From: a virus
Length of the DNA stretch: 37,833 nt
IMG/VR virus record: IMGVR_UViG_3300032084_001688
Location: 1-37,833 of that record
Strand: one strand, 5' to 3'
The position numbers and the translations under genes are program-made. A model generated the notes under the pieces. The model was not told the origin of the DNA and ran no database searches. It saw only the letters and a program-made list of their open reading frames with translations. Positions 2,869 through 15,279 of the stretch are shown piece by piece. Each line of letters begins with the position of its first letter. The stretch's first letter is position 1.

Positions 2869-3309
2869 ATGAAAAGAGGCAAGGAGATTTCCTTATCTTT
2901 ACCCTACGAATATAATGTTGTTTCAGGTACGGTAGATAATAGACACCCGAAATCAATATACATTCAAATATCAGCATGGGGTAAACCTAAGGATAATAGA
3001 GAAGAAGATTACGAAAAAATTATTAGACAAAAATCAAAAAGAGTTAAAAAGAAATTATATGAGGTATTAAATAAACACGATAGATTTTACAAAGATAGAT
3101 GTATTGTTGATTTTAATATGGCCTCATCAGGTGTTTCTTTCGATAAAAGAAGTTTTATGTCGGTAGAAATGACATTATTTCAAAAAGAACCATTTATACA
3201 AGTTAACTCAGAAGAACTATTCCCAACACTAAATAACATTTCCACAGAAATTATTAAAGGTGTTTTTGAAGAAGATGAAGATTTTAAATTTTATAGACGT
3301 AAATCCTAA
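2869..3309 (+). CDS. Hypothetical protein co-transcribed with glutamine synthetase
   Basis: 146 residues, charged and soluble, with a basic helical stretch (residues 45-65, rich in Lys and Arg) and an acidic C-terminus (EEDEDF). No motif is recognised. It starts 10 bases after the glutamine synthetase stop and ends just before a strong terminator, so the two genes form a small operon. Its function is unknown. Confidence 0.75.
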   Translation: MKRGKEISLSLPYEYNVVSGTVDNRHPKSIYIQISAWGKPKDNREEDYEKIIRQKSKRVKKKLYEVLNKHDRFYKDRCIVDFNMASSGVSFDKRSFMSVEMTLFQKEPFIQVNSEELFPTLNNISTEIIKGVFEEDEDFKFYRRKS

Positions 3310-4064: not shown

Positions 4065-4074
4065 GATATTTATA
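4065..4074 (+). promoter_or_regulatory. Candidate phage late promoter element, GATATTTATA
   Basis: A copy of the recurring element, followed by TAAAAAG, ending 14 bases before the ATG at 4089. It lies inside the longest open frame (from TTG at 4056), which shows that the upstream start codons are not used. Confidence 0.55.
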
Positions 4075-5166: not shown

Positions 5167-5193
5167 AAAAAGGTGGGTTATCCCACCTTTTTT
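5167..5193. terminator. Bidirectional terminator between convergent genes
   Basis: An eleven-pair perfect stem (AAAAAGGTGGG / CCCACCTTTTT) with a TTAT loop. Its A- and T-tracts make it work in both directions. It separates the OmpA-like gene (stop at 5165) from the CAP-domain gene, whose stop codon at 5192-5194 touches the T-tract. Confidence 0.9.
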
Positions 5194-5830
5194 ATTCTCT
5201 AAAGTTTTGTACCATATACTCATCACCCCAAGACGGATGTCCTTTTATATAATAAACTGATATATACTTCCATTTAACGTTAAGTATATTATATCTGTGT
5301 CCATAACCAGGTACACCAGCATCTACCATTAAACCTATTAAACTAGAACCACAATTTTCCGAACCTTTAGGTCCTAGTCTTTCAAACGGTGTTTGACCGT
5401 TTGGTCCGTAGTGTCCTGTTTGATTAACACTTTTTAAATACTCTCCGTGTGATACAGTTATTTTATACATTAAAGAATCAAATACTAATGTATCCATTGG
5501 TGTCAAAGTATCTAAAATACTTATTAGTTCTTCAGCTACTTTAATGTTTCTGATATGAACGTCTTTACCTGTGGTTTTTTTTATGTTAATATTTTTATTG
5601 TTAACATCTTTATTGCCTGTATAAGACACTGTTTTTATGGTAGATTTTGGGTCATCGTATCTACTCAATAACCACTTCTGAGCGTCCAAATATTTCTCAA
5701 CTTTTGGTATGTAAGATTTTGGGTTACTTCTAATTTTATTGATTTCATAAATCATTAACATTTCCTCATTGGTTTGTGTCGAACAAACAAACGGTACTAA
5801 AACTAATAATATTGCTATAAACTTTTTCAT
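5192..5830 (-). CDS. Secreted CAP-superfamily (SCP/PR-1-like) protein
   Basis: 212 residues from the ATG at 5830, chosen because MKKFIAILLVLVPFVCS is a clear signal peptide; the longer frame to 5875 only adds residues overlapping the upstream terminator. After the signal comes INKIRSNPKSY, typical of the first helix of bacterial CAP domains. Later come a helix with SHGEYLKSVNQTGHYGPNG, then GSENCGS and GYGHRYNILN, which supply the two histidines (SHG and GHR) and the NIL strand characteristic of the fold. CAP proteins are extracellular with varied roles. A phage-encoded exported copy is unusual and might act in the host envelope. It appears to have its own promoter. Confidence 0.75.
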   Translation of the reverse strand: MKKFIAILLVLVPFVCSTQTNEEMLMIYEINKIRSNPKSYIPKVEKYLDAQKWLLSRYDDPKSTIKTVSYTGNKDVNNKNINIKKTTGKDVHIRNIKVAEELISILDTLTPMDTLVFDSLMYKITVSHGEYLKSVNQTGHYGPNGQTPFERLGPKGSENCGSSLIGLMVDAGVPGYGHRYNILNVKWKYISVYYIKGHPSWGDEYMVQNFRE

Positions 5831-5834
5831 ATCA

Positions 5835-5865
5835 CTAATATACAAAAACAATTTTAAATAGCAAA
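5835..5865 (-). promoter_or_regulatory. Probable promoter of the CAP-domain gene
   Basis: On the - strand, TTTG (5865-5862) is followed by 19 bases and then TATATTAG (5842-5835), close to the Bacteroidetes TTTG-N19-TAnnTTTG pattern. It sits directly after the terminator T-run of the preceding gene. Transcription would start at or just before the ATG at 5830, giving a leaderless or nearly leaderless message. Confidence 0.45.
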
Positions 5866-5891
5866 AAAATCCCATTATTTAAATGGGATTT
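5863..5891 (-). terminator. Terminator of the CCA/2H gene, overlapping its stop codon
   Basis: On the - strand, a ten-pair perfect stem (AAATCCCATT / AATGGGATTT) with a five-base loop is followed by seven T residues (5869-5863). The gene's stop codon (5877-5875) lies at the loop and stem junction, so the last codons form half of the hairpin. Confidence 0.85.
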
Positions 5892-7416
5892 CTTGTAATG
5901 TTCCTGAAATTTTAAAAGGTTCTAATGAAGTCCAAGATGTAATATCATTACTCATTCTAGGTTTACCACTAGGTGATACAGCTAGTGTAACGTGTGGTGT
6001 TTTATTAGATACTTCTAAAGGTGTGTCAACCTTAACAGCTACTACATCACTTGTTGAACCTATATCGGTTACGGTTAATTCTATGTCTTGACCTATAAGA
6101 CCTCTTAATTTCATAGGTAAAGGACCTAAATTAACTGTCATGTGATGACAATAAACCTTCCAATCTTCAATATCTTTAAAGTGTTCGTATAATACGGAAA
6201 CTAAATGGTTTTGTGATTCACCATCCAAAACTACACCCGAATATGATATTGTAGATTTACCCATCAACATTTTGAATTTTTCAGTTTCTATTCTTTCTTT
6301 TTCTTGATTTATTTCTTTACCTCTAAAACCTTGTTTAGCTATTTGACCACCATCGGTGGTTATTTGGTATTTGATGAATGTTTTGATAAAATTAGTATCC
6401 ATACCCATCAACCTACCAAAGTTAGAAATAATTCCGTTATCTAAATGTAATCCTGTTAATTTATTTTTAAATTCAAAAGCTGTATCAGTTTCACCGTTTC
6501 TAAAGAAATCAATTAAAAATTTAACTTGTTTACCTTGTAGTTTGGTAAACTTTAATCTACCTATTAGTTTCTTATCTAAGTTTGTATCAATCTCATTTCT
6601 TAAAATAGAAGATATTACTATAATTGGTACTTTAGACTCAACTACTTCACCATCAGTATTTAAGTCTTGAAATACCCATTTCATTAAATCATATTTTCTA
6701 AGTAACCCTATAAACTGTTTAACAGATTTAGCTTGTATAATACCTTTAATAAATTCATCTTGAATTCTTTCCTGAGCTAAAGGTTTTCCGTCACCACTTA
6801 CTATTGAATTGTCTTTTTTAATAGCCTCATCAATACCTTTATCTACATCGGAACCGACACGTGCAGCAAATCTCATAGACCTCATTATCCTTAATTTGTC
6901 TTCGTCGAATCTATCTTCAGCATTACCAACTGTTTTAACAACACCGTTTTCCAAATCACTGATACCACCCACAAGGTCAACAACCTCACCTGTATCTAAA
7001 TCGTAGAATAAAGCGTTAATGGTTAAATCACGTCTTAATACGTCTTTGTCTATCGTAGAGAATTTTACTTCATCAGGTCTACGACCTTTACCTATATCTT
7101 CACGAAATGTAGCAATCTCGTAAGTGTCATCTTCAGTTACAACGTTTACAACGGCAAACTGTTCACCCGATTCTATTGTGTTGTACATAGGTAAAAGTTC
7201 CTTTACCTTATCAGGTACGGCATCAGTTGCCAAATCAAAATCTTTAGGTTTTCCACCCATCAAAGAATCCCTAACAGCACCACCAACAAGGTATAACTTA
7301 AACCCATTGTCTTTAAAAATTTTATGGATTTTATTTATTGAGTTAGGAACAGGGATATCCATTTTAACTCGGATTTCCTTATTCTCTTTTAGTATCTTTC
7401 TAATCATATCTTTCAT
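5875..7416 (-). CDS. CCA-adding tRNA nucleotidyltransferase fused to a 2H phosphoesterase domain
   Basis: 513 residues. Residues 1-11 (MKDMIRKILKE) match the short tag form here and end in an L-K-E prohead-protease-type site. Residues 25-250 are a class II polymerase-beta-type CCA or poly(A) enzyme: GGAVRD (45-50), the catalytic DFD pair D59/D61, RRDLTINAL (128-136) and the RIMRSMRFAAR helix (176-186). Residues about 385-513 form a second domain with two H-x-T motifs 50 residues apart (H425-M-T427 and H475-V-T477), the signature of 2H phosphoesterases that act on 2',3'-cyclic or 2'-5' phosphates in RNA. The fusion suggests tRNA 3'-end repair in one polypeptide. It is transcribed divergently from gp21. 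Confidence 0.85.
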   Translation of the reverse strand: MKDMIRKILKENKEIRVKMDIPVPNSINKIHKIFKDNGFKLYLVGGAVRDSLMGGKPKDFDLATDAVPDKVKELLPMYNTIESGEQFAVVNVVTEDDTYEIATFREDIGKGRRPDEVKFSTIDKDVLRRDLTINALFYDLDTGEVVDLVGGISDLENGVVKTVGNAEDRFDEDKLRIMRSMRFAARVGSDVDKGIDEAIKKDNSIVSGDGKPLAQERIQDEFIKGIIQAKSVKQFIGLLRKYDLMKWVFQDLNTDGEVVESKVPIIVISSILRNEIDTNLDKKLIGRLKFTKLQGKQVKFLIDFFRNGETDTAFEFKNKLTGLHLDNGIISNFGRLMGMDTNFIKTFIKYQITTDGGQIAKQGFRGKEINQEKERIETEKFKMLMGKSTISYSGVVLDGESQNHLVSVLYEHFKDIEDWKVYCHHMTVNLGPLPMKLRGLIGQDIELTVTDIGSTSDVVAVKVDTPLEVSNKTPHVTLAVSPSGKPRMSNDITSWTSLEPFKISGTLQEIPFK

Positions 7417-7442
7417 ATAGCCTAAATATACCTACAAATGTA

Positions 7443-7452
7443 CATATTTATA
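7443..7452 (+). promoter_or_regulatory. Candidate phage late promoter element, CATATTTATA
   Basis: A copy of the recurring element in the 54-base divergent gap between the CCA/2H gene and gp21. It ends 18 bases before the gp21 ATG and is followed by TAGAAATAAC. It points toward gp21. Confidence 0.55.
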
Positions 7453-7470
7453 TAGAAATAACAAAAAGAT

Positions 7471-8208
7471 ATGAAGATATTAAAACCAGGTGAAACAGGT
7501 TATGGTTATTTAGTGGAATATGACGCGGGATTTATTGGTCCTGAGTTAACTTGTGCTGATGGTACATGTACAAACGCTAATCTAATAAGAGAATTTGATT
7601 CGAGTATCAAATCACCTGACCTATATAATGAAGATGGTAGTCTACCAGACAAAGTTACTTTATACGCTGTATTACAAAAGTACGGTGTTGAGAATAGAAA
7701 CGGTAGAGTGTACCCAAAAGAGGTATTAGTAAAACAAAACGAAGCTTACCAAGAATATATTAAAATGAAAACAGCTCTAGGTGAATTGAATCACCCTGAA
7801 TCATCTATTATTGATGGTGAAAGAGTATCACACCTTATTACAGAAACATGGTGGGATGGAGCTACATTAATGGGTAAACTAGAATTAGACACAACTCCAG
7901 GTTATCACAAAATGGGTATCGTAAGTACTCTTGGTGATAAAGTGGCAAACATGTTAAGAAAAGGATGGACCGTAGGTATTTCTTCAAGGGGTGTTGGTTC
8001 ATTAAAACAAGAAGGTGGTAAGAATGTGGTACAAGATGATTTTGAAATTATTTGTTGGGACATTGTAACTTCACCATCTACACCAGGAGCTTGGGTGTCT
8101 ACTTCAGACGGTGACTTAAAACAATTTACCGAATCTACTGTAAACGGTAATAGAATTGTGGCAGAGTCAGACCAATCACTATTAAATAAATTAAACAAAT
8201 TACTGTAA
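7471..8208 (+). CDS. 21: Prohead core protease, T4 gp21-like
   Basis: 245 residues. This serine protease cleaves scaffold, capsid and internal proteins inside the prohead. T4 gp21 landmarks are all present: NRNGRVYPKEVL (76-87), ALGELNHPESS with the probable catalytic His108, ETWWDG (125-130), RKGWTVGISSRGVGSL (163-178) with the probable catalytic Ser at 171-172, and CWDIVTSPSTPGAWV (195-209). The family cuts after (Leu/Ile)-x-Glu, a motif that recurs in gp22, gp23 and the tagged proteins around it. Its stop overlaps the ATG of the next tagged gene (TAATG), placing that gene in the same head operon. Confidence 0.93.
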   Translation: MKILKPGETGYGYLVEYDAGFIGPELTCADGTCTNANLIREFDSSIKSPDLYNEDGSLPDKVTLYAVLQKYGVENRNGRVYPKEVLVKQNEAYQEYIKMKTALGELNHPESSIIDGERVSHLITETWWDGATLMGKLELDTTPGYHKMGIVSTLGDKVANMLRKGWTVGISSRGVGSLKQEGGKNVVQDDFEIICWDIVTSPSTPGAWVSTSDGDLKQFTESTVNGNRIVAESDQSLLNKLNKLL

Positions 8209-8684
8209 TGGCTAAGAAAGTTATAAGATTAACAGAAAAAGATATTGAATCTTTGGTTGGTAAAATCATGAATGAAGCTTCTGTTTCCAAAGACCAACAA
8301 AGAGCTGCCGGTATAGCGTTATCAGCTAAACGTGGTGAAACACCTGTTGGGGATTTAAAAGGTTCAGCTAAAGAGATGTATGACTCTATGACTGAAAAAC
8401 AACTTGAGGATTTTGCTAGTACAAAACATAAGGGTTTACCTGAAAAAGTTAATGAGGATTTACCTAGGAGAGAAAGGGAAAGACACGATACTCAATTTAG
8501 AAGAAGTTCATTTGAACCTTACCAAAGAGAATCTCAATTAATGGACATATTCGGACCTTATAAAGAAGACGTTCCACCAAACGTAATTTCTTATATGAGA
8601 AAAAATCCAGCTCTTATTATTAAGAGATTGGAACAAGTTTATGGTAGAGATAAAATTTTAAGATACTTAGGTATACAAGAGTAA
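8208..8684 (+). CDS. Tagged DUF3008-domain protein, putative prohead cargo
   Basis: 158 residues. Residues 1-23 are the long tag (VIRLTEKDIESLVGKIMNE), ending at E23 with a T4-type cleavage context. Residues about 24-80 (SKDQQRAAGIALSAKRGE, then LKGSAKEMYDSMTEKQLED and ASTKHKGLPEKV) match the small bacterial DUF3008 family, which has no known function. The C-terminal half is basic and unassigned. The ATG overlaps the gp21 stop. In T4 the small core proteins gp67 and gp68 lie next to gene 21, so position and tag both suggest a prohead core or internal protein. Confidence 0.8.
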   Translation: MAKKVIRLTEKDIESLVGKIMNEASVSKDQQRAAGIALSAKRGETPVGDLKGSAKEMYDSMTEKQLEDFASTKHKGLPEKVNEDLPRRERERHDTQFRRSSFEPYQRESQLMDIFGPYKEDVPPNVISYMRKNPALIIKRLEQVYGRDKILRYLGIQE

Positions 8685-8747: not shown

Positions 8748-9167
8748 ATGAAAAAAAAAGATAAATTAAAAAACATAGAAGAAGCTAATAAGAGATTATT
8801 AGGTGAAGACTTTGAATGGACTGGTGATGTACCTTCTGATGAAAAATATAAAATGAAAAGTTCTTCAAAGTATGATTTATCTGAAAAAGAAAACTTAGAT
8901 GAGTTTATGAACCAACTGATTACCTTATGGAATCAATATACAGGACATAAACCAAACAACGCGGCAATCGCTAATGACAATAGAGCTATATTATTCAACC
9001 TACTTACAAGTGGTGAGTTAGCTAAACAAATAAATCAAAGAATCCCACCAAGTAGTTTACATATGGGTTCACATGGTAGAGAATATTGGTCTAACAACCC
9101 AGAACAAATGACCAAATTTTTAAATAATATAGGTATAACAGATTTCCAACTTAAACCATTAGGATAA
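8748..9167 (+). CDS. Hypothetical head-region protein
   Basis: 139 residues. The N-terminus is basic and amphipathic (MKKKDKLKNIEEANKRLLGE), with an L-G-E at 18-20 that could be another prohead-protease site, though the sequence differs from the main tag. The rest is soluble and polar (Asn- and Gln-rich; NPEQMTKFLNNIGITDF near the end). No known family. The stop overlaps the ATG of the next tagged gene (TAATG at 9165-9169), so it belongs to the gp21 head operon. Probably a minor head or core protein, by context only. Confidence 0.75.
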   Translation: MKKKDKLKNIEEANKRLLGEDFEWTGDVPSDEKYKMKSSSKYDLSEKENLDEFMNQLITLWNQYTGHKPNNAAIANDNRAILFNLLTSGELAKQINQRIPPSSLHMGSHGREYWSNNPEQMTKFLNNIGITDFQLKPLG

Positions 9168-9460
9168 TGAAAAAAAGAGTAATTAGATTAACAGAATCAG
9201 ACGTAGAAAATTTAGTGAAAAAAATCATTAAAGAAGAGGATACCATTAGTAGTTCAGAACTAGGTCAAAATACTAAAGACACAGCTAAAGAACTTAAGAA
9301 AGGTGGGTTAGCTCCAAAAGAAAGAGAAACATTAAACCAAGCTATAGAAATGTTAACAAACTTTTTTAAACAACCAGGTAATCAAGCAACAGGAAAAGCT
9401 TATAACCTATTCAATAAACTAAAATCTGAATTAGAAAATGTTAAACCTGAAGAGGAGTAA
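9167..9460 (+). CDS. Small tagged protein, putative prohead core protein
   Basis: 97 residues. Residues 1-23 are the canonical long tag (VIRLTESDVENLVKKIIKE) with an I-K-E cleavage context after E23. The remaining 74 residues are charged and helical (ELKKGGLAPKERETLNQAIEMLTNFF) with an acidic tail. The tag is nearly the same as in the 14836-15279 protein, while the bodies differ. Predicted mature form: residues 24-97, if gp21 cuts there. The start is fixed by TAATG overlap with the upstream stop. Confidence 0.78.
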   Translation: MKKRVIRLTESDVENLVKKIIKEEDTISSSELGQNTKDTAKELKKGGLAPKERETLNQAIEMLTNFFKQPGNQATGKAYNLFNKLKSELENVKPEEE

Positions 9461-9522: not shown

Positions 9523-9756
9523 ATGAACGAACAAATAGCAAAGTACTTTTTAGTAAAAGTTGAGTTCGAAGGAATCAACGAGAACAACGGGAAACCAAAG
9601 AAAATTAAATCACAATACTTAGTGGATGCACAATCGTGTACTGAGGCTGAGGCAAGAATGTCTGAATATCTTAAAGATACTATTCTAGACTACGAAATCG
9701 TTTCAGCTGTGAAATCTCCAATTGAAGATGTTGTAGAGGTGTCGGTAACGGCTTAA
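9523..9756 (+). CDS. DUF4494 family protein
   Basis: 77 residues. The pattern YFLVKVEFEG..NENNGKPKKIKSQYLVDAQSCTEAEAR matches DUF4494, a short family found mainly in Bacteroidetes and their phages, with no established function. It supports the host assignment. It follows the tagged gene by 62 bases; the gap holds a weak inverted repeat (AGATT/AATCT) and an A-rich leader. The last four bases overlap the end of the convergent metallopeptidase gene, leaving no terminator between them. Confidence 0.8.
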   Translation: MNEQIAKYFLVKVEFEGINENNGKPKKIKSQYLVDAQSCTEAEARMSEYLKDTILDYEIVSAVKSPIEDVVEVSVTA

Positions 9757-10160
9757 TCTCTATACTTGTGGGGTAACCCACACAAATCTGATAACCTATG
9801 AAAGTGTTCATCATGTTCATGGTTCTTATGACCAAGAACGGCGTGGATAAGTTCATGGGTTATTATATGCTTAACGTATTCCTCACCACCATTATCAATA
9901 GCTTTAGGTTTAATTAACATAATCCCATGGTCATCTTCATTCTCAGGATGAATAAAGGCCCCAATCTTACCATCTTTAAAGTTATCATCGAATTTTAAAT
10001 AAATTTCAGGTATATCAGGCTCATGTCCGTGTAAATTTTTATATGCTCTGTAAATTTTTTTAACACAGTCATTAAATAATTCATTTAACGAATTATCCTC
10101 GATTTTTACATCGTTTTCGATGTATTCTCTAAGTATTACACGAATTTTTTCTCTTACCAT
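9753..10160 (-). CDS. SprT-like zinc metallopeptidase with short N-terminal tag
   Basis: 135 residues. HELIH (102-106) is the HExxH zinc site, followed by HKNHEHDEHFHRL with a candidate third ligand at H116 or H119, as in SprT- or WSS-like proteases. The preceding beta-strand segment (PEIYLKF...IGAFIHP...GIMLIKP) also fits this fold. Residues 1-12 (MVREKIRVILRE) resemble the short tag and end in L-R-E, so it may be packaged in the capsid. SprT-type enzymes cleave proteins on DNA; the substrate here is unknown. It has its own late-like element immediately upstream. Confidence 0.7.
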   Translation of the reverse strand: MVREKIRVILREYIENDVKIEDNSLNELFNDCVKKIYRAYKNLHGHEPDIPEIYLKFDDNFKDGKIGAFIHPENEDDHGIMLIKPKAIDNGGEEYVKHIITHELIHAVLGHKNHEHDEHFHRLSDLCGLPHKYRD

Positions 10161-11557: not shown

Positions 11558-13306
11558 ATGGGATATTTATTAAAATCAGGTGAAGTTGGAAACATCGGAC
11601 TTAAACACCAAAAAGCAATCCGTGAAGCAACGGTAAACAAATGGGACTCTTTAGGATTCCTAGAAGGACTTGAAGGTCACGTAAGAGAGAACATCGCTCT
11701 TTTATATGAGAACCAAGCGTCTGTATTAATCAACGAAACTACTGACTCAGCAGGGTCAAACGGTTCTTTCGAGACTGTAGTTTTCCCAATCATTAGAAGA
11801 GTATTCTCTAAGTTATTGGCTAACGATATCGTATCTGTACAAGCATTAAACTTACCAATCGGTAAATTATTCTACTTTGTACCTAAGATTTCTGATAGAG
11901 ATAATTTTACTGACCCACTATTAGGTAATCATAGAGGTCCTAAAGTTGTTAACTGTATTAACTGTCCAGCAGTTACTTTCTCAGGAAACACTAACCTTTA
12001 TGACGCATTTTATGATGACGCTTTATTTGACCACTCTAAAGGAGCTATAACTGTTAACACTGTAACAGGTACAGCTGTAACTTTCGCATCTAACACTTAT
12101 ACAGCTGGTGACGAACCTTTATCTAACGATGGTTCAAGAAGAAGACAACTTTTAGAGGTAGCTGGATTCTCTCAAGCTTCAGCTGGTAGATTAATCGGAC
12201 CTGACGGTGAAGAGGTTGATACTGAAGAGTTCTTAGCATCTCTTAGAGTTATCGCTACAAATGACATACTAGCACACAGTTCAGCTGACCCTGGTAACCC
12301 TACGAACGTAATCGTATCTGCTGGTAACGAAGTACCATTTAGAGTACACACAATGCAGTACGGTAAAGGTATGATTAACTATGGGGATATCTGTAACGCT
12401 AACGGAAACCTTTACATCGAATTAGACCTTACTACTCCAGTATGTGTTGAGTGTGGTGATAACACTTTTGATGGTTACATCGGAGCATCTACAGGTACTA
12501 CAATAGATGGTGGAAATACATACGTTACTTGGAACTCTTATGACTCTTTAGAGGAAGAAGACCAAATGGGGGAAGTTTCTTTCGAACTTGATTCTGTAAC
12601 AGTATCGGTTACTGAAAGAAAACTAAGAGCTACTTGGACTCCTGAATTAGCACAAGATGTAAGTGCATTCCACAACATCGATGCTGAAGCTGAATTAACA
12701 GCATTACTTTCTGAACAAGTTGCAGCTGAAATCGATAGAGAAATCTTGAGAGACTTAAGAAAAGGAGCAGCATGGTCATTAAGATGGGATTACAACGGAT
12801 GGAAGAGATTACCTAACAACAACGGTTACACTCAAAAAGATTGGAACCAAACTCTTGTTACGGCAATCAACCAAATCTCAGCACAAATCCATAAATCAAC
12901 TTTAAGAGGTGGAGCTAACTTCGTAGTTGTATCTTCTGAGGTATCAGCAGTGTTTGATGACTTAGAGTACTTCCACGTATCTAACGCATCTCCTGAGTCT
13001 GATACTTACAACATGGGTATCGAAAGAGCTGGTTCATTAGGTGGTAGATATACTGTATACCGTGACCCTTACGCACCTTCTTACTCTGTGTTAATTGGAC
13101 ATAAAGGTAAATCATTGTTAGACACAGGTTACATCTACGCACCATACGTACCGATGCAACTTACCCCTACAATGTACAACCCATTCAACTTTGTTCCGAT
13201 TAAAGGTATCATGACAAGATACGCTAAGAAAATGGTTAACAACCGTTTCTACGGACACATCAGAGTTGACGGATTGAGAACATTCCCTGTGGCTGAATTG
13301 AGATAA
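11558..13306 (+). CDS. 23: Major capsid protein, T4 gp23-like
   Basis: 582 residues, HK97-fold shell protein. Near the N-terminus, ENQASVLINE (51-60) followed by a small-residue linker and VVFPIIRRVFSKLLANDIVSVQALNLPIGKLF parallels T4 gp23 around its maturation site, so cleavage after Glu60 is expected. The C-terminal half has the typical EAELTALLSEQVAAEIDREIL helix and GRYTVYRDPYAP strand. It is about 60 residues longer than T4 gp23, with an insertion around 130-330 containing two CxxC pairs (C133/C136 and C296/C299). Codon choice is richer in C-ending codons than in neighbours, as expected for high expression. A strong terminator follows. Confidence 0.95.
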   Translation: MGYLLKSGEVGNIGLKHQKAIREATVNKWDSLGFLEGLEGHVRENIALLYENQASVLINETTDSAGSNGSFETVVFPIIRRVFSKLLANDIVSVQALNLPIGKLFYFVPKISDRDNFTDPLLGNHRGPKVVNCINCPAVTFSGNTNLYDAFYDDALFDHSKGAITVNTVTGTAVTFASNTYTAGDEPLSNDGSRRRQLLEVAGFSQASAGRLIGPDGEEVDTEEFLASLRVIATNDILAHSSADPGNPTNVIVSAGNEVPFRVHTMQYGKGMINYGDICNANGNLYIELDLTTPVCVECGDNTFDGYIGASTGTTIDGGNTYVTWNSYDSLEEEDQMGEVSFELDSVTVSVTERKLRATWTPELAQDVSAFHNIDAEAELTALLSEQVAAEIDREILRDLRKGAAWSLRWDYNGWKRLPNNNGYTQKDWNQTLVTAINQISAQIHKSTLRGGANFVVVSSEVSAVFDDLEYFHVSNASPESDTYNMGIERAGSLGGRYTVYRDPYAPSYSVLIGHKGKSLLDTGYIYAPYVPMQLTPTMYNPFNFVPIKGIMTRYAKKMVNNRFYGHIRVDGLRTFPVAELR

Positions 13307-14808: not shown

Positions 14809-14818
14809 ATATTTATAT
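14809..14818 (+). promoter_or_regulatory. Candidate phage late promoter element, GATATTTATA
   Basis: A copy of the recurring element ending 17 bases before the ATG at 14836 and followed by TAAAAAACAC. It is nearly identical over 15 bases to the copy at 4065 (GATATTTATATAAAA), which precedes another tagged gene. Confidence 0.55.
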
Positions 14819-14835
14819 AAAAAACACAGACTTTT

Positions 14836-15279
14836 ATGAAAAAGAGAATAGTTAGATTAAACGAACAAGATATAGAGAACCTAGTTAAGAAAATAATCAA
14901 GGAAGATGATACTATGGATTCTACACAACCAAAAGAAAAAAAGGAAGAACCAAAAACAACCATGACTCGTCACGCAGCTTATCCAGCAATTGATAGATTA
15001 GAGACTGAGTTGGAGAGACTTAAAATGGAATTCAAAGATAGTATTGCTAACGCGGTATCAGGAACAGATGGTTATCATAGTGAAATAGATAAATTCTCAG
15101 AAGACTTTGGTAAATTCATTACAAAGGTATCAAACCTTAAAAGTAAAATTAATCAATACCAACTAGATACTAAGGAACAAAGAAAAAAGGCTGTTGAACA
15201 AAGAAAAGCTTCCTACATGGCACAACATAACGATAGAAAACATAAGGCTTCGAGAGAAGGTAGAAATTATTCTTATTAA
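14836..15279 (+). CDS. Tagged coiled-coil protein, putative prohead cargo
   Basis: 147 residues. Residues 1-23 are the long tag (IVRLNEQDIENLVKKIIKE) with an I-K-E cleavage context after E23; it is closest to the tag of the 9167-9460 protein. The body has a low-complexity Lys/Glu/Thr stretch (30-45), a coiled-coil-like region (about 50-125) and a basic C-terminus rich in Arg, Lys and His (RKASYMAQHNDRKHKASR). A basic, packaged protein might contact DNA in the head, which is inference. It starts a three-gene + strand unit. Confidence 0.75.
   Translation: MKKRIVRLNEQDIENLVKKIIKEDDTMDSTQPKEKKEEPKTTMTRHAAYPAIDRLETELERLKMEFKDSIANAVSGTDGYHSEIDKFSEDFGKFITKVSNLKSKINQYQLDTKEQRKKAVEQRKASYMAQHNDRKHKASREGRNYSY

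Follow-up and report, generated by a model that had tools for sequence, protein, structure and literature searches.

What would a phage gain from joining, in one chain, an enzyme that rebuilds tRNA 3' ends to a phosphoesterase? The question is raised by a gene in a 37.8-kb virus record with a T4-type head module (the whole of this stretch is hereafter the window), in which a predicted CCA-adding enzyme is followed by a 2H phosphoesterase-like domain. An earlier note, made from the letters of the DNA, had read its product as a one-chain repair system for tRNAs damaged by host anti-phage nucleases, possibly delivered in the virion.

Gene layout and domain composition

The minus strand carries the gene, in an intact frame (Table 1); the plus strand across 5875-7416 shows stops throughout. 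The coordinates in the earlier note, which gave no strand, are correct, and the positions it listed for GGAVRD, DFD, RRDLTINAL, H425/T427 and H475/T477 are all exact. A model of the full-length protein has a mean pLDDT of 91.3 and a pTM of 0.83.

Table 1. The CCA-2H gene, its parts and its surroundings in the window
Feature	Position	Strand	Remark
CCA-2H fusion gene	5875-7416	-	513 aa + stop
N-terminal tag MKDMIRKILKE	7384-7416	-	residues 1-11; candidate capsid-targeting/propeptide sequence, ends L-K-E
CCA-adding (tRNA nucleotidyltransferase) module	6265-7383	-	residues 12-384; activity predicted
GGAVRD	7267-7284	-	residues 45-50
DFD	7234-7242	-	residues 59-61; metal-binding carboxylates
RRDLTINAL	7009-7035	-	residues 128-136
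EDKLRIMR	6880-6903	-	residues 172-179; EDxxR nucleotide-selecting motif
2H phosphoesterase (CPD-like) domain	5878-6264	-	residues 385-513
HxT motif 1	6136-6144	-	H425-M-T427
HxT motif 2	5986-5994	-	H475-V-T477
TTTG-N19-TACATTTG	7435-7465	-	Bacteroidota-type promoter-like site, 18 bases upstream of start codon
CAP-domain-like secreted protein	5192-5875	-	neighbour; weak Pfam match, below cut-off
Prohead (head maturation) protease, T4 gp21-like	7471-8208	+	divergent neighbour
Gp23 major capsid protein	11558-13306		Pfam 1.2e-70

Residues 12-384 constitute a class II CCA-adding enzyme of predicted activity. This core is matched by PolyA_pol (PF01743, 7.9e-36) and PolyA_pol_RNAbd (1.5e-4) in the Pfam scan and by the PHROG tRNA nucleotidyltransferase (1.6e-53); its best PDB sequence match is a CCA-adding enzyme (3.6e-31), with the E. 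coli poly(A) polymerase (PAP) scoring about equal to CCA-adding enzymes in the same comparison. In structure searches the full-length model recovers human and bacterial CCA enzymes at 1e-15 to 1e-14. The class II head motifs GG-x-VRD (45-50) and DxD (59-61) are present, as are the nucleotide-selecting motifs RRD (128-130) and EDKLR (172-176), which were aligned to those of the CCA enzyme 6ibp. Poly(A) polymerases bear the signature [LIV][LIV]G[RK][RK]F, which has no match in the window protein; we accordingly set aside an identity as PAP, with the proviso that sequence alone separates the two kinds of enzyme incompletely. Thus, profiles, intact motifs, structure matches and many relatives bear out the assignment first made in the earlier note.

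The 2H domain was modelled by AlphaFold2 from a 59-sequence alignment (pLDDT 95.0, pTM 0.87). The top Foldseek matches of the model are CNPase catalytic domains (1e-4), and in VIA-align comparisons CNPase (Z 14.4, rmsd 2.0 over 127 aa) is followed by the fungal tRNA ligase kinase-CPD 6u05 (Z 11.7), Acb1 (Z 8.1) and LigT-like enzymes (Z ~7). It is this fold comparison that carries the 2H assignment, since a PDB sequence search with 2H profiles gave chance matches only. The Pfam model PF08302 (tRNA_lig_CPD) scores weakly against the window domain alone (20.1 bits, below the cut-off of 23), at 24.7 bits against the relative L118, and matches eight of the nine members of alignment A1, at best with 7.6e-9. 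In the Pfam scan of the window protein no HD-domain model appeared at E-values up to 1, the Acb1 model PF23474 had no match, and neither a ligase nor a kinase was detected, the chain comprising CCA and 2H only. The earlier note had staked its reading on the C-terminal domain folding as a 2H protein, and this is the fold that is confidently modelled.

Both HxT motifs sit at strands of the domain model (46-50 and 96-101), and correspond in kind to the catalytic pairs H230/T232 and H309/T311 of CNPase. H425, T427 and T477 are invariant in the 59 aligned relatives, and H475 is retained in 58 of them, the exception having Asn. The scan pattern behind most of these relatives included 'HHM', so that part of the conservation of motif 1 stems from ascertainment; no pattern of that scan contained motif 2. 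As judged from the aligned sequences, conservation across the 59 relatives rules out a chance occurrence of the two motifs. In the solo 2H homolog L141:3995-4378, Asn (PNIT) stands in place of the second catalytic His. CNPase and the tRNA-ligase CPD free the 3'-OH and keep the phosphate at the 2' position. CPD activity is common to the yeast, lancelet and vertebrate enzymes of the group (PMC5434554).

Recurrent fusions and their genomic company

A full-length profile scan of IMG/VR yielded 287 relatives, 80 of which were kept, and a scan with the 2H domain yielded 150, of which again 80 were kept. The search for the fusion in other phages, which the earlier note had proposed, recovered CCA-2H fusions in L002, L017-L026 and L028. 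Within its CCA part the L018 copy is frameshifted, which probably reflects a sequencing error. In L027 CCA and 2H are two genes that overlap by ATGA at the domain boundary (an assembly indel is possible), and Met385 of the window protein aligns with the start codon of this separate 2H gene; a huge-phage ortholog, LR745206, terminates exactly at the point where 2H would start. The order is reversed (2H-CCA) in L071 and L081, and other CCA enzymes are fused to a polynucleotide-kinase-like P-loop domain (L065:4287-6149, AAA_33 5.6e-9) or to a HAD nucleotidase-like domain (L091:4980-6857, phrog_2643 1.4e-18). Polyvalent proteins in L115, L153 and L161 combine 2H with CCA domains, those of L115 and L153 along with an ART domain.

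The 80 kept relatives of the 2H scan include ~29 distinct kinase-2H proteins, mostly bearing an N-terminal tag like that of the window protein, along with solo 2H proteins and HAD_SAK_1-2H proteins (1e-34). Standalone 2H relatives are present in crAss-like, DAC and Lak phages.

Several of these architectures merit separate description. The tagged kinase-2H proteins of L118, L120, L126, L127, L109 and ~24 others (e.g. L118:3434-4372) are ~316 aa long, are often encoded beside Rnl1, and amount to the healing half of the fungal/plant tRNA ligase plus a virion-type tag. L153:1109-5242 encodes a 1378-aa polyvalent protein with CCA and ADP-ribosyltransferase domains, a 2H domain of the Acb1/LigT type and a further one of the CPD type at the scan hit. 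In L024:4227-6527 and L025:4188-6494, ~250 unassigned residues lie between tag and CCA core; the insert of L024 had no Pfam match. In L028:3800-6236 a GIY-YIG endonuclease-like ORF splits the CCA-2H gene near the GRR motif and probably belongs to a mobile intron; a group I intron was considered there and set aside, having no Rfam match at the gathering score.

In the CCA tree the CCA-2H proteins form a single clade (SH-aLRT 98) and the 2H-CCA proteins a separate one (99). In the 2H tree (132 columns, with many weakly resolved forks) separate positions are taken by the CCA-2H proteins, by the 2H-CCA proteins together with L178, and by the polyvalent versions, which makes it likely that CCA and 2H were joined at least three times, i.e. 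in CCA-2H, in 2H-CCA and in the long polyvalent proteins. That the two were joined more than once, and in either order, speaks most strongly for a shared pathway. We also considered that the CCA enzyme had acquired its 2H domain from the kinase, and rejected this, as the CCA-2H versions group near the solo and HAD-linked 2H domains, outside the kinase-2H clade.

The association extends beyond fusion: 28 of the 34 records bearing this CCA enzyme have one 2H domain each, fused to CCA, on a ~280-330-aa protein (mostly kinase-2H) or, in a few cases, on shorter frames. Among 19 capsid relatives neither 2H nor this CCA enzyme was found (0/19; Fisher p 1.5e-9 for the comparison, uncorrected for kinship, the phages being related and the records hence not independent), and no CCA or 2H came up in a local search that covered 80 capsid-gene loci. 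Rnl1-type ligases are present in 13 of 22 records, Rnl2-type ligases in 15/22 (12 above cut-off) and tRNA genes in 16/22; in six records (G010, G011, G015, G016, G026 and G032) the Rnl1 ligase and the 2H gene are no more than ~3 kb apart. The fusion phage G002 encodes HAD_SAK_2, Rnl1 and a kinase of 139 aa that lacks 2H one after another, the last two overlapping by ATGA.

A predicted role of the CCA-2H protein in tRNA/RNA repair is well supported by this genomic context, since the fusion recurs independently and the related phages carry kinase-2H proteins, Rnl1 ligases and HAD_SAK phosphatases. The repair system envisaged in the earlier note fits the context in this respect; calling it one-chain is too strong, because a CCA enzyme with a CPDase would mend 3' ends only, and resealing needs a kinase and a ligase, which a fusion phage encodes as separate genes.

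The head module and the N-terminal tag

In the window 4.2 kb separate the gene ending at 3309 from the protease, as against 62-174 bases at the equivalent place in the capsid relatives L215, L216, L223 and L225. The CCA-2H gene, the CAP-like gene and others thus form an accessory island in the head module; the CAP-like gene also accompanies CCA-2H in L017, L018 and L027. A glutamine synthetase-like gene in the same head module (1782-2858, Pfam 3.4e-19) is retained in L215 and L216. A PADLOC scan gave nothing useful.

The promoter-like site TTTG-N19-TACATTTG ahead of the CCA-2H gene is suggestive by position alone, its pattern occurring in the window no more often than chance predicts. We considered TATAAATA as a late promoter of the T4 type and rejected it: it occurs upstream of all eight members of the CCA-2H clade, but its window count is only weakly above chance (6 vs 2.7). 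A further element, TATAAATAT, lies upstream of three minus-strand genes (4066-4074, 7444-7452 and 14809-14817, all on the minus strand), each time followed by a TAnnTTTG box; these sites are weakly above chance.

The short tag to which the earlier note had drawn attention is real and recurs on relatives, being present in L017, L018, L019, L024 and L025 and absent from L002 and L027 (two of the closest relatives). Expressed as M-x(1-4)-[IVC]-[KR]-x-x-L-x-E at the protein start, it is found on 24 of the 68 CCA proteins and on 20 of the 24 kinase-2H proteins vs 43 of 1350 other ORFs of the same loci, these counts being drawn from related, not independent, sequences. It is modelled as a low-confidence helix.

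A short N-terminal sequence directs proteins into the T4 head (PMC9958956), and the prohead proteases of T4 and of giant phages cleave after Glu (PMC5694885). The tag has the T4-type capsid-targeting form, i.e. the N-terminal 10-20 residues with an LxE or IxE end and a gp21-like protease encoded nearby. The T4 internal proteins IPII and IPIII and the injected Alt similarly combine a short N-terminal tag ending in LxE with a location near prohead protease and Gp23-type genes; however, they are inhibitors or an ADP-ribosyltransferase, whereas the window protein is a predicted RNA-repair enzyme, with putative packaging and cleavage. Packaging of the CCA-2H protein into the virion via this tag is a tentative reading, which we consider possible rather than probable.

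Alternatively, the tag could be a generic helix for interaction, membrane association or localisation, with the enzyme working only in the cells that express it; this explanation, itself compatible with repair, has in our estimate not quite an even chance. It is favored by the lack of the tag in L002 and L027 despite their close kinship and same neighbourhood, by the presence of tags on many unrelated proteins and by the host-type promoter-like site preceding the gene, but it sits less well with the LxE end beside a gp21-like protease, with the strong enrichment of the tag on CCA and kinase-2H proteins and with the position of the gene in the head module, where relatives have so few bases. The virion delivery suggested by the earlier note is accordingly left with the tag, its LxE end and the neighbouring protease in its favor and with the two untagged relatives against it.

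Other proteins of the window bear tags as well. A SprT-like protein (9753-10160, minus strand; Pfam match just under the cut-off) begins with a tag of the CCA type, MVREKIRVILRE. Small proteins near the protease and capsid genes (8208-8684, 9167-9460 and 14836-15279) display a second kind of tag, e.g. MKKRVIRLTESDVENLVKKIIKE, which is also seen in capsid relatives; its bearers are candidate head-core proteins.

Predicted function and relation to known systems

Taken together, we propose that the CCA-2H protein probably repairs tRNA 3' ends as a bifunctional enzyme and belongs to a multi-gene phage RNA-repair set. Through a nuclease, host defence or spontaneous hydrolysis, a tRNA would come to bear a 2',3'-cyclic phosphate on its acceptor end or close to it; the 2H domain would convert this phosphate to a 2'-phosphate and a free 3'-OH, in the manner of CNPase and the tRNA-ligase CPD, and the CCA domain would extend that 3'-OH, restoring the missing C, C and A. 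We infer this order of steps from the need of a nucleotidyltransferase for a 3'-OH; the fusion itself need not imply sequential action on one molecule. Both activities, the 2'-phosphate product, the substrate, the coupling of the two steps and any benefit against host nucleases are likewise predictions. In the case of cut anticodon loops, repair would fall to the separate phosphatase, kinase and RNA ligase, with the 2H domain providing the healed 3' end.

The same chemistry would suffice for the ordinary maturation of phage tRNAs that lack an encoded CCA, with 2H tidying cyclic phosphates left by processing and no defence involved. Related phages have up to 65 tRNA genes, and an encoded CCA end is seen in just 8 of 164 tRNA predictions (from sampled, overlapping loci). 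Against this, no tRNA gene was found in the window (a fragment), tRNAs are likewise absent from four fusion records of 61-130 kb, with 26 in one of 318 kb, the neighbouring kinases, HAD_SAK phosphatases and Rnl1 ligases point to broken RNA, and a virion-type tag would be odd on such an enzyme. Hence, while compatible with repair, we hold maturation alone to be unlikely. Predicted tRNAs in L195-L214, L029, L036, L118 and others mostly end in a single C, without the full CCA.

It is very unlikely that the 2H domain serves in counter-signalling and, like the phage 2H enzyme Acb1, destroys the cyclic (oligo)nucleotides of CBASS-like systems, with the CCA fusion reflecting shared cargo: the structural match to Acb1 and the polyvalent protein of L153, which holds Acb1-type and CPD-type 2H domains with CCA and ART, are outweighed by the far better matches to CNPase and the tRNA-ligase CPD, by the assignment of this 2H family in Pfam to PF08302 rather than Acb1, and by the fusion of the same 2H domain to a polynucleotide kinase in sister phages.

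The bifunctional repair enzyme that we favor has several partial precedents. In the E. coli-type CCA enzyme, as in the window protein, a hydrolase domain comes after the class II nucleotidyltransferase core; however, there it is an HD domain, of a different fold from 2H, and a functional parallel would be convergent. PMC10673834, citing Yakunin et al., describes that HD domain as a 2',3'-cyclic phosphodiesterase thought to fix damaged tRNA 3' ends. The closest folds to the 2H domain are those of the fungal/plant Trl1 kinase-CPD and the vertebrate CNPase, and in Pfam too its nearest model is PF08302, at a score under the cut-off. The kinase-2H order of Trl1 is also found in the sister phages, but in Trl1 the CPD partner is a kinase, a ligase lies in the chain and the domain has ~210 aa, whereas in the window protein the partner is CCA, the ligase is absent and the domain has ~130 aa. 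The relatives of the window also carry Rnl1, P-loop kinases and HAD_SAK phosphatases, as do T4-type tRNA repair (Pnkp + Rnl1) and the Swiss Army Knife proteins.

Phage CCA enzymes and 2H domains are already known, as is the HD analogue in bacterial CCA enzymes; the 2H fusion and its recurrence would be the new part. The available part of a review of jumbo phages records that these carry CCA enzymes and 2H domains, and does not mention their fusion (PMC7824862), and the paper on polyvalent proteins never mentions CCA and never found its 2H domains with RNA ligases (PMC5512222). The fusion was not found in the literature searched, although the survey of Burroughs and Aravind (2016) might list one.

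A metal-dependent nuclease such as Cas12a3 (RuvC) should leave 3'-OH ends; there CPD would be unnecessary, and the 2H domain would instead answer metal-independent nucleases. For tails cut past the discriminator base, CCA addition would not be enough to restore the end. Cas12a3 has recently been shown to act by trimming the CCA tail of tRNAs, an attack that viral tRNAs cannot readily evade, such that viral resistance would need 'yet unknown' means (PMC12851939). One such means could be that tagged CCA and CCA-2H proteins, and in sister phages the tagged kinase-2H proteins, enter the cell together with the DNA and instantly restore tRNA 3' ends, resisting tail cutters of this kind; we regard this as a rather improbable scenario. 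A phage family that unites the rebuilding of tails with the healing of ends, recurs through independent fusions and is maybe virion-borne makes a direct, testable candidate for resistance to tRNA-tail cutting. Relative to the HD domain in bacterial CCA enzymes the CCA-2H protein would be a convergent solution, and it links CCA enzymes, kinases, phosphatases and ligases as one phage repair set. Thus, the recurrent pairing of CCA with 2H indicates a phage tRNA-repair toolkit, perhaps directed against tRNA-cutting host defences.
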